Below, in pieces: positions 29,116-34,763 of a stretch of 41,029 bases of DNA. The DNA is from Weeksellaceae bacterium (GTDB lineage: Bacteria; Bacteroidota; Bacteroidia; Flavobacteriales; Weeksellaceae): NCBI GenBank assembly GCA_022701545.1, contig JAKOOG010000303.1, positions 1 through 41,029 on the forward strand. Direction: 5' to 3'. The notes beneath the pieces are model-generated. The model was not told where the DNA came from, ran no database searches, and was given only the letters and a program-made list of their open reading frames with translations. The position numbers were made by a program, and so were the translations under genes. Position 1 is the stretch's first letter. Every line of letters begins with the position of its first letter.

Positions 29116-29655
29116 TTAGTCATGCTTTACCCAGATCAGTTCATCGGTATTGTAGCCTGCGCTTTTTGCTTTTGCAAGAAACCTCTGCTTAATACTGTCG
29201 GGAATTTCTTTGGTCCGGGAAAGGATCCACAGGTATTTTAGATTATTTCCCATGATTAAGGCGTATCGGTAATTGTCATCGATGTCAACGACGTTATAGC
29301 CTGCCCAGATCGGCTTAAAAAACGAAACTTTTAACCGGGCTTCGCTTTCACCATTTACGAATCGTGCTTCACCGGTGGATTCTTTCCATTCTTTTTTAAC
29401 ATAGTTGTAGCCTCTGTTGTCAACTTTAATGGTTCCGTCCGGATTTTTGGAATAAGTGGCTGTTACGTTATCCATATTCTTTTCGAATTTATAATCGAAC
29501 CGGGCAATTTCGTACCATTGGCCAAGATATTGATCGGCTTTGAAATTCTGAACGGCTTTGACACCTTTCGGAATCCCTACGGAACAGGAGTTTAAAATCA
29601 TCAGCCCTAAAATCCCCAACGAAACAGGAATGGCCATTTTCTTCAGCATCTTCAT
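29116..29655 (-). CDS. lipocalin family lipoprotein (Blc-like)
   Basis: LNSCS lipobox; YLGQWYEIARFDYKFEKNM; LWILSRTKEI. Confidence 0.92.
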   Translation of the reverse strand: MKMLKKMAIPVSLGILGLMILNSCSVGIPKGVKAVQNFKADQYLGQWYEIARFDYKFEKNMDNVTATYSKNPDGTIKVDNRGYNYVKKEWKESTGEARFVNGESEARLKVSFFKPIWAGYNVVDIDDNYRYALIMGNNLKYLWILSRTKEIPDSIKQRFLAKAKSAGYNTDELIWVKHD

Positions 29656-29726: not shown

Positions 29727-30461
29727 TTAGGAAAAACCTTTCAGGAAGTTGTCCCTGAAACTTCCGGAGACTTCAATCTCGGTATTATCGGAAAGGGTCA
29801 CGGTTCCGCCCTTATGATATGATTTTACAAAATGGGTATTGATGATGTGTGAACGGTGAACCCGTACGAAAGGATTTTCCAGCAAATCGTCGAAATGTTT
29901 AAGAAAGCGGCATACCATTTTTTTGGAACCGTCCGTAAGATACACCTGGGTGAAATTTCCGTCCGCCTGCAGCCTTACGATGTCTTCCGTTTTCACGACA
30001 TCAAATCCCTGCAGTGTCGGAAGGATCAGCTGCTGCTTTTCGGGTTTTACCTTTAAGTTTTCAAGCAGGATCTTGTTCCGGTTGAGCGCTTCTTTATTCT
30101 CAATGCTTTCCGCTGCTTTGTTTACCGCCACAATTAGCTCCTGGATATCGATGGGCTTCAGAATGTAGTAGCTCGCCGATTTGTTCAGGGCCTGTAAAGA
30201 ATATTGTGAAAATGCGGTAATAAAAATCGTTTCATAGGAAAAATCTTTGGTTGCTTCGAGCACATCAAAGGCATTCCCGAAAGGCATTTCCACATCCAGG
30301 AATACAAGCTGCGGCTGTTGGTCGGCAATTAAAGGGACGGCTTGTTTGATGTTTTCCGCTTCCCCCAGAATTTCAACCTGCGGGCAGTATTTGGTAAGGT
30401 AGTTTCTCAAAACCTCTCTTGCGATCAGTTCATCGTCTACGATGACGGCTTTTATTTTCAT
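29727..30461 (-). CDS. LytTR-family response regulator
   Basis: receiver VDDE/LFLDVEMP/KP; C-terminal LytTR domain FVRVHRSHIIN. Confidence 0.93.
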   Translation of the reverse strand: MKIKAVIVDDELIAREVLRNYLTKYCPQVEILGEAENIKQAVPLIADQQPQLVFLDVEMPFGNAFDVLEATKDFSYETIFITAFSQYSLQALNKSASYYILKPIDIQELIVAVNKAAESIENKEALNRNKILLENLKVKPEKQQLILPTLQGFDVVKTEDIVRLQADGNFTQVYLTDGSKKMVCRFLKHFDDLLENPFVRVHRSHIINTHFVKSYHKGGTVTLSDNTEIEVSGSFRDNFLKGFS

Positions 30462-30632: not shown

Positions 30633-32411
30633 TTAGATTAAATTTATTTTTAAAACAACCAAAACGCCTGAACTTTTCTCTTTGTCCTTGATGGAGCAGC
30701 TGATTTCTTTTTTATAAAGATCATTCAGCAGCGCAATCCGCTCCAGTGTATTTGTCATGCCGCGGCCTTTCCGGGTTTTCTGGTGTTCGGTCTTTTGTTT
30801 TTTGCTTTCTTCAATACCGATGCCGTTGTCTTCGATCGTGATTTTCAGGTATTGGTTTTCTTTCTCAAAACGCAGGGTTAAAAATCCTTTGGTCGATCTG
30901 TACCGCAATCCATGCCAGACGGCATTTTCCAGAAATGGCTGTATGAGCATTCCCGGAACTTTCAGGCTTTGGGTATTCAGACTTTCATCCACATCAATTT
31001 CGTAGTCGAATTTATCGGCGAAGCGTGTCTTTTCCAGTGCCAGGTAATTCTGCAAAAGGTCGAGCTCCTGCTGAAACGGGATAAAGTCTTCCGTAGAATT
31101 TTCCATCACGCCGCGCATCAGTTTTGAGAATTTGGTCAGATATTGGTTCGCTTCCAGTTCATTATTGGTGGCAATAAAATGGTTCACCGAATTTAAGCTG
31201 TTAAAGATAAAATGCGGATTCATCTCCCGCCGAAGTGATTGGAGCGCAATCTTTTTATTCTTGATCTGAACCTTTTTCAGCATTCTGAAAATGAAAACAA
31301 CAAGTCCTGTTAAAATCAGTAAGGCTGCAAGCAGGCTGTAGTTAAAAACATTTTTCTTACGGATCAGCTCATCCTTCAGCTGTTTTTCTTTTTCCAGCTG
31401 GCTGATTCTCTGTTCGGTATCCTCAAGAATTTTTTCGTCAACAAGGCTTTTGTCTTTAGCAACGAGTCCGGGCAGCTTTCGTAAAAAATCGCGGTATAAA
31501 TGTATGGAAGCATCGGTATTTTCGGAAACGTCGTAGAGGCTGTCAAGCGTTTGTACACTCTTCCGGGCTTCCAGAGTGTGGCCTTTTTCGAGGGCAATTC
31601 CATATGATTTTTTCAACAGCCCGATCGCTTCTTGCGGATCATTTTTCTTAATGTAAATATCTGCCAGCTCGCGGATCTGCTCGACTTCCTTTTCAGAATT
31701 TTCTTTAACGAAACTTTCTTTTAAAACATTCTTCTTGGCTTCAATGGCTTTATCAAACTTCCTGTTGTCTACATAGAAGTCGGTTAATTTCTGATTGATC
31801 TCCAAAGCCTGCTGCGGGGCTTCCTTTTTAGAAATTTTATAGGCATTGGTAAGGTTCGCCTCTGCTTTCGGGATGTTGTTCTGCTGCATATTCACATCGG
31901 CCATCTGGCTGTAACTTGCTGCCAGTGCCCCGTTATCTTTTTCCTTTTCATTCAGCTGGATATTGCTTTGGATGGCTTCCTCCTTTGCTTCGGGAGAACC
32001 GACGGAAAGCCGGGTCACATCATTGGAATTAAGGGTCCGGCTTTTAAGCGGACTCACTTCCGCTGCCCTGCCGTAGTTGCTGATGGCCGGAGCAATCTTA
32101 TTCTGTTTTTCTTGTGACTGAGCCAGCTTACGGCTCGTCTTTTCGATATTGGGCCGGTCATTTAATTTTTCGTAAATGGTTTTAGCTTTGGTGTAATATT
32201 CTTCGCTCTTGCGGAAGTTTCCGTCCTTAAAAAAGGTTTCACCGATGTTGTAGTAGGAATCGGCTTCTGCATATTCGTCTTTGATATCAACCGCCCTTTC
32301 AAGCTTTTTGGTCTGCATCCGCACCTCTCCTGCAACATTATTGCTTTGGGAATAAGCTGTATTTCCAAAGATCACTGAAAAGAAAACGGTAAAAAGTCGG
32401 AGCATTTTCAT
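30633..32411 (-). CDS. TPR-containing sensor histidine kinase (LytS/His_kinase PF06580 type), signal peptide and one TM
   Basis: MKMLRLFTVFFSVIFGNTAYSQ signal; TPR-like helices; TM; LRREMNPHFIFNSLNSVNHFI; IEDNGIGIEES. Confidence 0.92.
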   Translation of the reverse strand: MKMLRLFTVFFSVIFGNTAYSQSNNVAGEVRMQTKKLERAVDIKDEYAEADSYYNIGETFFKDGNFRKSEEYYTKAKTIYEKLNDRPNIEKTSRKLAQSQEKQNKIAPAISNYGRAAEVSPLKSRTLNSNDVTRLSVGSPEAKEEAIQSNIQLNEKEKDNGALAASYSQMADVNMQQNNIPKAEANLTNAYKISKKEAPQQALEINQKLTDFYVDNRKFDKAIEAKKNVLKESFVKENSEKEVEQIRELADIYIKKNDPQEAIGLLKKSYGIALEKGHTLEARKSVQTLDSLYDVSENTDASIHLYRDFLRKLPGLVAKDKSLVDEKILEDTEQRISQLEKEKQLKDELIRKKNVFNYSLLAALLILTGLVVFIFRMLKKVQIKNKKIALQSLRREMNPHFIFNSLNSVNHFIATNNELEANQYLTKFSKLMRGVMENSTEDFIPFQQELDLLQNYLALEKTRFADKFDYEIDVDESLNTQSLKVPGMLIQPFLENAVWHGLRYRSTKGFLTLRFEKENQYLKITIEDNGIGIEESKKQKTEHQKTRKGRGMTNTLERIALLNDLYKKEISCSIKDKEKSSGVLVVLKINLI

Positions 32412-32450
32412 AAAACAAAGATATACATATCTGTCATTTGCCGAAAACAA

Positions 32451-32481
32451 TTCACCAAGTGGAAACGGAGACTCACCAAGT
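32451..32481 (+). promoter_or_regulatory. LytTR-type operator: TCACCAAGT x2 at 21-bp pitch
   Basis: TCACCAAGT at 32452-32460 and 32473-32481, upstream of TAATTTTAC (32510-32518). Confidence 0.7.
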
Positions 32482-32536
32482 CTGCCGTTTTTCTCCGCGG
32501 TTCCGAAACTAATTTTACGGCAGAATTTTAAATTTA

Positions 32537-33487
32537 ATGATCATGAAAAATTTTTTACCGCTGGCTGCGGCTTTATGCTTTCAACTTTCTTTTTCACAGG
32601 TTTCCGGGAATATCAATTACAGAAACCGGACCCAGTACCCGGAAAACAATATCAATGTAGCAGATCCCGTTACCGCTCAGAATGTTAACGAAAACATCAT
32701 CAGCATAAAGGGCCTGGCTAATGTGAAGGCAGAAGAATATGTGGCTATATTCAGCATTACCCAGGTTGCGGAAAGCGCTGAAGAAGTGAATGACCTGATC
32801 GACCACCGCATCAACAGTTCGCTGGAGCGCATCAAAACAAGAAAAGGAGTCGAAACCTATGTAGACATGATTTCCTTTGTGCCCGTTTATCAATATAATG
32901 TTGATAAGAAAACGTCAAGCAAAAGAACCTACAACGAGGTGCCGGCCGGATTTGAGCTGAAGAAAAACATCCATATTAAATTTACCGATCCTTCGCAACT
33001 GAACGATTTTATATCCATTTTATCCAAGAATGAAATCTATGATCTCGTACGCGTCGATTATTTTGCCGGTCATATGGAAAGCATCAAAAAAGAGCTGATC
33101 CGTAAAGCCAGTCAGGCATTACAGGAGAAAATCGTAAACCTTGAGAATCTGTTGGGTGAAAATTTCGGAACAGCAGAAAAAAATGTGAGCGATGGCTTCA
33201 GGGTGACCCTGCCTACGGAAATGTACCGGTCCTACGAAGCATACAACAGTTCTTCACTGGCCCTGACGAAGCTTTCCAATGTCAATCAGGCTGCTAAATC
33301 CGTCACTTCTTATTATCAGCCGGTTCTGGACAAAGAATTTGATTTTGTCATTAATCCTGTGATTCACGAACCGGTTATCCAAGTAATGTACGAGATCAAA
33401 TTAACTGTTAAAAGAAATTCCGGACAAGGGAAAGTACCGGAACCGAATTCATTTAAAAAAGAAAAGAAACGGTTCAGGTTATTTTAG
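32537..33487 (+). CDS. SIMPL-domain (DUF541-like) exported protein
   Basis: signal peptide; ISIKGLANVKAEEYVAIFSITQVAESAEEVNDLID; related in plan to 34089..34763. Confidence 0.75.
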   Translation: MIMKNFLPLAAALCFQLSFSQVSGNINYRNRTQYPENNINVADPVTAQNVNENIISIKGLANVKAEEYVAIFSITQVAESAEEVNDLIDHRINSSLERIKTRKGVETYVDMISFVPVYQYNVDKKTSSKRTYNEVPAGFELKKNIHIKFTDPSQLNDFISILSKNEIYDLVRVDYFAGHMESIKKELIRKASQALQEKIVNLENLLGENFGTAEKNVSDGFRVTLPTEMYRSYEAYNSSSLALTKLSNVNQAAKSVTSYYQPVLDKEFDFVINPVIHEPVIQVMYEIKLTVKRNSGQGKVPEPNSFKKEKKRFRLF

Positions 33488-33596
33488 GGCCCGCTTACGA
33501 AAAAGCTGCTGCTCTTTGTATCAAAATTTTAATATTAATTGAAATTCTGTTAACAGTCAACCATTTAGCATTAAGTACATTTGTTTAAAACCAATC

Positions 33597-33956
33597 ATGA
33601 TTATGAAAAAACACCTTTATCTTTTGGGATTATGTGCTTTATTCCTGCACAGCTGCTCGTTTCTGGAGCAGAGCGATTTTATGGAAACGAAGATCATTTC
33701 GAGCAACCTCAACGAAAAGATCATCTATAAATATTACCAGACGGGAATTCACGATTATAAAGTCGATTTTTATTCTGTAGATCATTTGGGATCCATCAAA
33801 TTGTTTGAGCATGATATCAATGATGTACTGTTGCCTTCCAACACCTACCATATTTCCGAAAGCAATGATGAGCTGGTTATTAAGACGAAACTTTTTCCGG
33901 AGGCGAGGAAGCTCGTTACCCGCAGCGGGAAATCGATTATTTTAACGAACCGGTAA
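33597..33956 (+). CDS. small lipoprotein of unknown function
   Basis: LGLCALFLHSCSFLEQ lipobox. Confidence 0.65.
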   Translation: MIMKKHLYLLGLCALFLHSCSFLEQSDFMETKIISSNLNEKIIYKYYQTGIHDYKVDFYSVDHLGSIKLFEHDINDVLLPSNTYHISESNDELVIKTKLFPEARKLVTRSGKSIILTNR

Positions 33957-33990
33957 ATCATTGTAGGAACTGTTCTTCTATTTCAGCCGC

Positions 33991-34021
33991 TTCACCAAGT
34001 GAAACCTGCTTTTCACCAAGT
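33991..34021 (+). promoter_or_regulatory. LytTR-type operator: TTCACCAAGT x2 at 21-bp pitch
   Basis: 33991-34000 and 34012-34021, upstream of TAATTTTAC (34049-34057). Confidence 0.7.
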
Positions 34022-34088
34022 TTCAGGACATCCGTTTTTTATTCTGTGTAATTTTACAGTAGAAATTTAAAATTAAAAACAGGAAATT

Positions 34089-34763
34089 ATGAGATTGAGA
34101 CATTTTTTACTGATCGGATTACTGATATTCGGAGGTCTGATCAATGCCCAGGAGATTAAAAAGAATTTTATTGAAGTAACAGGCGTTGCCGAAATGGAAT
34201 TGGAACCGGATGAGATTATCTTCAATATCGGAATTAAAGGCGACAATAAAAATCAGCTTGCCGACAACGAAAAACAATTGTTTGAGATCCTGAAGAACAA
34301 CGGTGTGAAAAACGAAGACATCAAATTCAAATCGATGTACCAGAATATTTATTCCAAGACCAAAGTCTTCACCAAAAGTCTTGAGTTTAAAGTGACCAAA
34401 AATACGAATATGGGAAATCTGTTTGAAAGCCTGAACCAGAAATGGGTAAGCAGCATCAACATCAGCGAAATTAAAAATACCAAAATCGCCGAATTCAGAA
34501 AAACCGTAAAAGTAAATGCTTTGAAAGCAGCCAGAGAAAAAGCGGGCTATCTGTTGGAAAGTATCGGTAAGAAATTGGGAAGTCCCCTTGAAATTGTAGA
34601 AATGGAAGATTATACCAGCGATACGGTCCTTCCGATGGCTTACAGAAGCAAAGTGGCCAATGTTCAGCTGGAAGCTGCTGATGCAAGCGTAGATTATTCC
34701 TTCGAAAACATCGATAATATCAAGCTGAAATACAGCATCAAAACAAAATACGAAATCCTATAA
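34089..34763 (+). CDS. SIMPL-domain (DUF541) exported protein
   Basis: signal peptide; IEVTGVAEMELEPDEIIFNIGIKGDN; ALKAAREKAGYLLESIGKKLGSPLEI. Confidence 0.88.
   Translation: MRLRHFLLIGLLIFGGLINAQEIKKNFIEVTGVAEMELEPDEIIFNIGIKGDNKNQLADNEKQLFEILKNNGVKNEDIKFKSMYQNIYSKTKVFTKSLEFKVTKNTNMGNLFESLNQKWVSSINISEIKNTKIAEFRKTVKVNALKAAREKAGYLLESIGKKLGSPLEIVEMEDYTSDTVLPMAYRSKVANVQLEAADASVDYSFENIDNIKLKYSIKTKYEIL

Follow-up and report, generated by a model that had tools for sequence, protein, structure and literature searches.

A conserved paired direct repeat as the likely operator of a LytTR two-component system next to SIMPL-domain genes in Chryseobacterium

Introduction

LytTR-domain response regulators mostly bind upstream of the -35 element and activate transcription, and their sites normally consist of two repeats of 9-11 bp separated by spacers of 11-13 bp (PMC4847170, PMC11347149). 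These regulators share no common consensus sequence, so the letters of a motif cannot by themselves identify the protein that binds it (PMC4847170). Among the closest described systems are BtsSR (YehUT) and YpdAB of E. coli, in which a LytS-type kinase is paired with a LytTR response regulator and two direct repeats with a pitch of about 21 bp stand upstream of a few promoters, giving a small local regulon (PMC4847170). In S. aureus, the LytTR regulator of AgrCA uses paired direct repeats upstream of the divergent promoters P2 and P3 and is autoregulated (PMC4227749).

Bacteroidota genomes are rich in LytTR regulators, and in a limited literature search we found no worked-out operator for the type that is paired with a TPR kinase. 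The locus analyzed here, from a Weeksellaceae bacterium, resembles the described systems in its kinase type, regulator family and repeat geometry, and its regulator carries the sequence FVRVHRS, a local form of the FhRhHRS motif of AgrCA (PMC4227749). We found no prior description of the motif or the regulon in the open-access literature.

Results

We analyzed a window of 41,029 nucleotides, the whole stretch of contig JAKOOG010000303.1 used in this study. The features of the locus are as follows.

29116-29655, minus strand: Lipocalin_2 lipoprotein gene, behind the regulator gene on the same strand, possible operon member
29727-30461, minus strand: LytTR response regulator (Response_reg and LytTR), proposed binder of the repeats
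30633-32411, minus strand: histidine kinase with predicted signal peptide, TPR repeats, one transmembrane segment and a LytS-type His_kinase domain (PF06580)
32416-32423, minus strand: TATCTTTG, putative -7 box for kinase-regulator transcription, separated from the site by 28 bp and from the kinase ATG by 4 bp
32452-32460, plus strand: half-site 1a, TCACCAAGT, between the kinase and SIMPL1 genes
32473-32481, plus strand: half-site 1b, TCACCAAGT, 21 bp from 1a
32510-32518, plus strand: TAATTTTAC, TAnnTTT-type box starting 28 bp past the site, putative -7 element for SIMPL1
32537-33487, plus strand: SIMPL1, SIMPL-domain protein (PF04402), proposed target 1
33597-33956, plus strand: small putative lipoprotein with an LHSC lipobox, no Pfam or NCBIfam match
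33992-34000, plus strand: half-site 2a, TCACCAAGT
34013-34021, plus strand: half-site 2b, TCACCAAGT, 21 bp from 2a
34049-34057, plus strand: TAATTTTAC, box starting 27 bp past the site, putative -7 element for SIMPL2
34089-34763, plus strand: SIMPL2, with a SIMPL domain (PF04402), the second proposed target; its gain and loss in the genus follow the regulator

Domain matches agreed with the gene identities proposed in the first-pass annotation. The regulator exceeded the cut-offs for PF00072 (59 bits) and PF04397 (45.2 bits), the TPR-containing kinase matched PF06580 (78 bits) and has an NPHFIFNSLN box, and both proposed targets belong to PF04402. The kinase and regulator genes are adjacent in the window, and the pairing is kept across the mapped loci. 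The lipocalin gene stays with both in loci where the targets are split off (L082, L084 and L092), and its membership of the regulator's operon is possible. In five loci (L075, L078, L079, L080 and L006) an open reading frame of 237-241 aa lies between the regulator and kinase genes; where it was read (L075 and L006), it encodes an exported protein of no Pfam family.

Re-derivation of the coordinates placed the two pairs of TCACCAAGT exactly where they had been reported, at 32452/32473 and 33992/34013, both with a pitch of 21 bp. They are also the only pairs in the window, as had been claimed: even with up to 3 mismatches allowed, the pattern TCACCAAGT-N12-TCACCAAGT matched nowhere else. Dinucleotide shuffling of the window gave a mean of 0.03 expected paired matches, and none of 100 shuffles contained two. 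Taken singly, half-sites with 1 mismatch were as frequent as expected by chance. The search of the whole genome (3.81 Mb in 408 contigs, 87% complete), which had been proposed as a check, confined the exact pattern to these two pairs and revealed no scattering. Three further matches, each with 3 mismatches, look like chance, the reversed-pattern control yielding five of that kind. With repeats of 9 bp and a spacer of 12, the pairs fall within the range given for LytTR sites.

We then looked for the motif in related genomes. Allowing up to 2 mismatches, it was found in 96 of 100 genomes of the same genus (Chryseobacterium), usually in clusters of 2-5 same-strand copies spanning a few kb and nearly always at the kinase-regulator locus, and the reversed-pattern control over the same 100 genomes gave almost no matches. 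The few off-locus matches in the genus carry 2 mismatches each and lack the flanking SAAA letters. The fetched loci contained 82 forward-strand matches and 0 reverse ones, the loci having been oriented by their sites beforehand. Among exact half-site pairs lying within 80 bp of each other, the pitch was 21 bp in all 54. The consensus operator reads TTCACCAAGT-SAAA-N7-TTCACCAAGT. In an alignment of the 34 sites that have a TAnnTTTAC box, column identity was 0.93-0.94 in the half-sites and 0.89 in the SAAA that follows, against values of 0.30 for the upstream flank and 0.35 for the remaining spacer. The repeats together with this flank pattern are a phylogenetic footprint, footprinting of this kind having been among the checks that the first-pass annotation proposed; the failure of conservation near SIMPL orthologs that it had named as a possible refutation did not appear, the motif being kept throughout most of the genus and at promoters. 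These observations support the repeats as a conserved regulatory site whose geometry matches that of LytTR operators.

An inverted-repeat reading was also considered. The first copy contains a partial dyad, TTCAC-CAA-GTGAA. We retained the direct-repeat reading because the base that creates the dyad varies between G and C from genome to genome, and no dyad is present in the second copy. An off-locus near-match, TTACCAAGTGAAAGTGNGCAATTACR, recurs in three genomes (G241:C11:594861, G347:C1:163699 and G358:C6:204875) irrespective of the presence of the regulator, and is perhaps conserved coding sequence.

The distance between the repeats and the promoters is also conserved. Both pairs had been reported to lie 28-29 bp before TAATTTTAC; the motif and its placement were borne out, but the measured distances are 28 and 27 bp. 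For 46 of 56 Chryseobacterium sites, 9 of 10 sites from other genera and 21 of 22 more distant ones, a TAnnTTT(G/A) box starts exactly 27-28 bp past the site. In Flavobacterium, the sigma-A -7 consensus is TAnnTTTG and sits at -12 to -5 (PMC9723704), which would place the operator at roughly -70 to -40.

The first pair starts 40 bp ahead of the kinase ATG (32411), in line with the distance first proposed. On the kinase side of the site, most loci have TATCTTTG, or TTACTTTG, which is one base shorter, at a distance of about 28-30 bp. Nine Chryseobacterium sites lack a forward box, and all nine adjoin the kinase gene; barring cases unclear by eye, they have a kinase-side TATCTTTG or TTACTTTG box. 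Because all of them stand beside the kinase gene, these sites appear to be kept for the kinase operon itself, and because a TAnnTTTG-like box persists there without a divergent promoter, the kinase-regulator operon is likely to be autoregulated through the first site. Among the proposed targets, both SIMPL genes are supported, and the system's own operon is probable. The site is oriented opposite to the kinase promoter, an unexpected arrangement given that a direct repeat is asymmetric. The kinase gene starts as TATCTTTG-TTTT-ATG (32409-32423, minus strand), an arrangement common to most Chryseobacterium loci. Since TTTTATG directly follows the -7 box, the kinase-regulator mRNA may be leaderless or nearly so.

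The motif was then compared with the distribution of the regulator, orthologs being defined by at least 64% identity (the next paralogs reach at most 45%). Across 150 genomes of the family, 21 contained both regulator and motif, 2 the regulator alone, 3 the motif alone and 124 neither. The motif was therefore present in 21 of 23 genomes with the regulator ortholog versus 3 of 127 without it (Fisher p ~2e-20, relatedness ignored; none of the co-inheritance counts takes phylogeny into account). Each of the three motif-only genomes has one chance-like match. The two regulator-only genomes, G132 and G177, hold the most distant orthologs in the family and have no motif at 1 mismatch; in G132 a 2-mismatch version is in place, and in G177 there is none. 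Within the genus, the motif occurred in 16 of 16 genomes with the regulator versus 0 of 5 without it, and the presence of SIMPL2 follows the same split. In a further genus genome without the motif (G074), the best relative of the regulator is a 39% paralog. A second genus from another family, presumably Flavobacterium, had the motif in 12 of 12 genomes with the regulator versus 1 of 7 without; the lone match belongs to a different type, which two other genomes also contain.

The same association is seen where the locus has been rearranged. In the split loci (L081/L082, L083/L084 and L092/L093), one site remains with the kinase-regulator pair and another with the distant target. A search that tolerated up to 3 mismatches against the Chryseobacterium motif found the same promoter layout beside regulators 57-70% identical in other families and orders (L136-L149 and, in Chitinophagaceae, L018). 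All six loci of paralogous LytTR regulators (L150-L155) had no site. The repeats are thus kept or lost together with the neighboring LytTR regulator, which supports this regulator as by far the best candidate for the protein that binds them.

The genes behind the site varied among genomes. Elsewhere, the genes directly behind sites encode SIMPL1, SIMPL2, a DUF4139/DUF4140 protein or a vWA-like protein of 390-400 aa; others encode another vWA protein, a SnoaL-amidohydrolase, a rhodanese or proteins of no assigned family. Most of these proteins have apparent signal peptides. Across genomes, the vWA protein recurs most widely as a target, and SIMPL1 comes next. The name of a SIMPL regulon, given in the first-pass annotation, is therefore too narrow, as other genomes put vWA, DUF4139, amidohydrolase or rhodanese genes under the site. 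SIMPL1 as the fixed partner of the site was ruled out: its close relatives in other Bacteroidota with no regulator on the fetched stretch, some of these stretches being short, have no site (L009-L014, L016, L017, L019, L020 and L023). Most genus genomes have the motif and no close SIMPL1. Several genus genomes (G014, G019 and G033 (L015)) have a SIMPL1 gene interrupted by stops or frame changes and keep the repeats. The stable core is the kinase, the regulator and the operator.

Discussion

Our results suggest that the repeats are the operator of the neighboring LytTR two-component system, which would likely activate SIMPL1, SIMPL2 and the kinase-regulator operon; we put the probability of this reading at roughly 0.87. 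The sensor kinase, whose TPR domain is predicted to be periplasmic from the signal peptide and single transmembrane segment, would phosphorylate the LytTR regulator. Two LytTR domains would then bind cooperatively to the 9-bp direct repeats, which are two helical turns apart and face the same side of the DNA. The bound region, about -70 to -40, would lie just upstream of the sigma-A promoter, and binding would most likely activate transcription. In the window, SIMPL1 and SIMPL2 would be the targets, the former perhaps together with the downstream gene for the small lipoprotein. No site precedes the lipoprotein gene in the window, so that the gene is predicted to be transcribable only from the first promoter. 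The first site would also serve the divergent kinase-regulator operon, producing autoregulation, and the regulon would be compact and local. What the analysis establishes is the repeats with their geometry and promoter spacing, their conservation and their inheritance together with the regulator; binding, activation, the signal and the physiological role are what we infer. Because the target proteins are exported, a function in the envelope is suggested, and such a role would be reasonable. Of the first-pass reading, the regulatory part is well supported, and the emphasis on SIMPL genes and the functional account are supported in part.

The direction of control is the part of this reading most open to an alternative, in which the bound regulator is a repressor of the targets or has opposite effects at the kinase and SIMPL promoters. 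The reversed orientation of the site relative to the kinase promoter would fit this, and LytTR repressors are known, such as CoxC, whose operator overlaps the -35 element (PMC11347149). Here, however, a gap of 27-28 bp to the -7 box puts the end of the site at about -40, upstream of -35, where most LytTR regulators activate. This position and the usual behavior of the family favor activation over repression (PMC11347149, PMC4847170), and we consider a repressing or opposing action unlikely.

The identity of the binding protein leaves less room. These genomes are rich in LytTR paralogs and other regulators, any of which might recognize the repeats and leave the LytTR regulator linked to them by position alone. 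Against this, motif and regulator are gained and lost together, the motif accompanies both the regulator and the distant targets in split loci, and the geometry of the repeats is that of LytTR sites; another binder therefore seems very improbable. That the repeats are chance or mobile sequence is hardly conceivable. The chance-level frequency of single half-sites would agree with it, but two paired matches were found against the 0.03 expected, and the pattern is kept in 96 of 100 genus genomes, at promoters and with variable spacer letters, so that genus-wide conservation and the site alignment refute it.

Taking the operator reading further, the locus might represent an undescribed envelope-stress response of Bacteroidota, in which an old TPR-kinase/LytTR pair and a well-kept operator, partly a single bidirectional site, are combined with changing exported targets (SIMPL, vWA and DUF4139 proteins). 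We offer this only tentatively. Strong comparative evidence allows the operator, the partner pair and the targets to be assigned from sequence. The predicted response to one signal would also provide a functional handle on the exported SIMPL, DUF4139 and vWA protein families.

Comparison with individual known proteins gave no equivalent. BtsR was the best NCBIfam match of the regulator, but the score for NF008677 (99.1 bits) is below the curated cut-off of 246, and the regulator was rejected as a BtsR (YehT) equivalog. SIMPL2 shares its domain with YggE, the SIMPL-domain oxidative stress defence protein of E. coli; its match to NF008299 is weak (29 bits, far below the curated cut-off of 249), and the function is not transferable. 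In F. johnsoniae coevolved with Burkholderia, all five lines were mutated in a LytTR regulator or the kinase listed next to it, FJOH_RS09515/09520 (PMC10197871). The mutated codons fit none of the twelve orthologs examined, and for that reason the identity of that pair with the present system is not established.

Compared with AgrCA, one site is shared between divergent genes here rather than one serving each promoter, the motif differs, and no peptide pheromone genes were seen near the locus in the window. Compared with BtsSR and YpdAB, the motif also differs, and the targets here are exported SIMPL, vWA and DUF4139 proteins, whereas there they are transporters. The sensor in those systems is a multi-pass pyruvate sensor, and here it is a periplasmic TPR domain. 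The system is, on solid grounds, an uncharacterised example of an established type of LytTR regulatory circuit.
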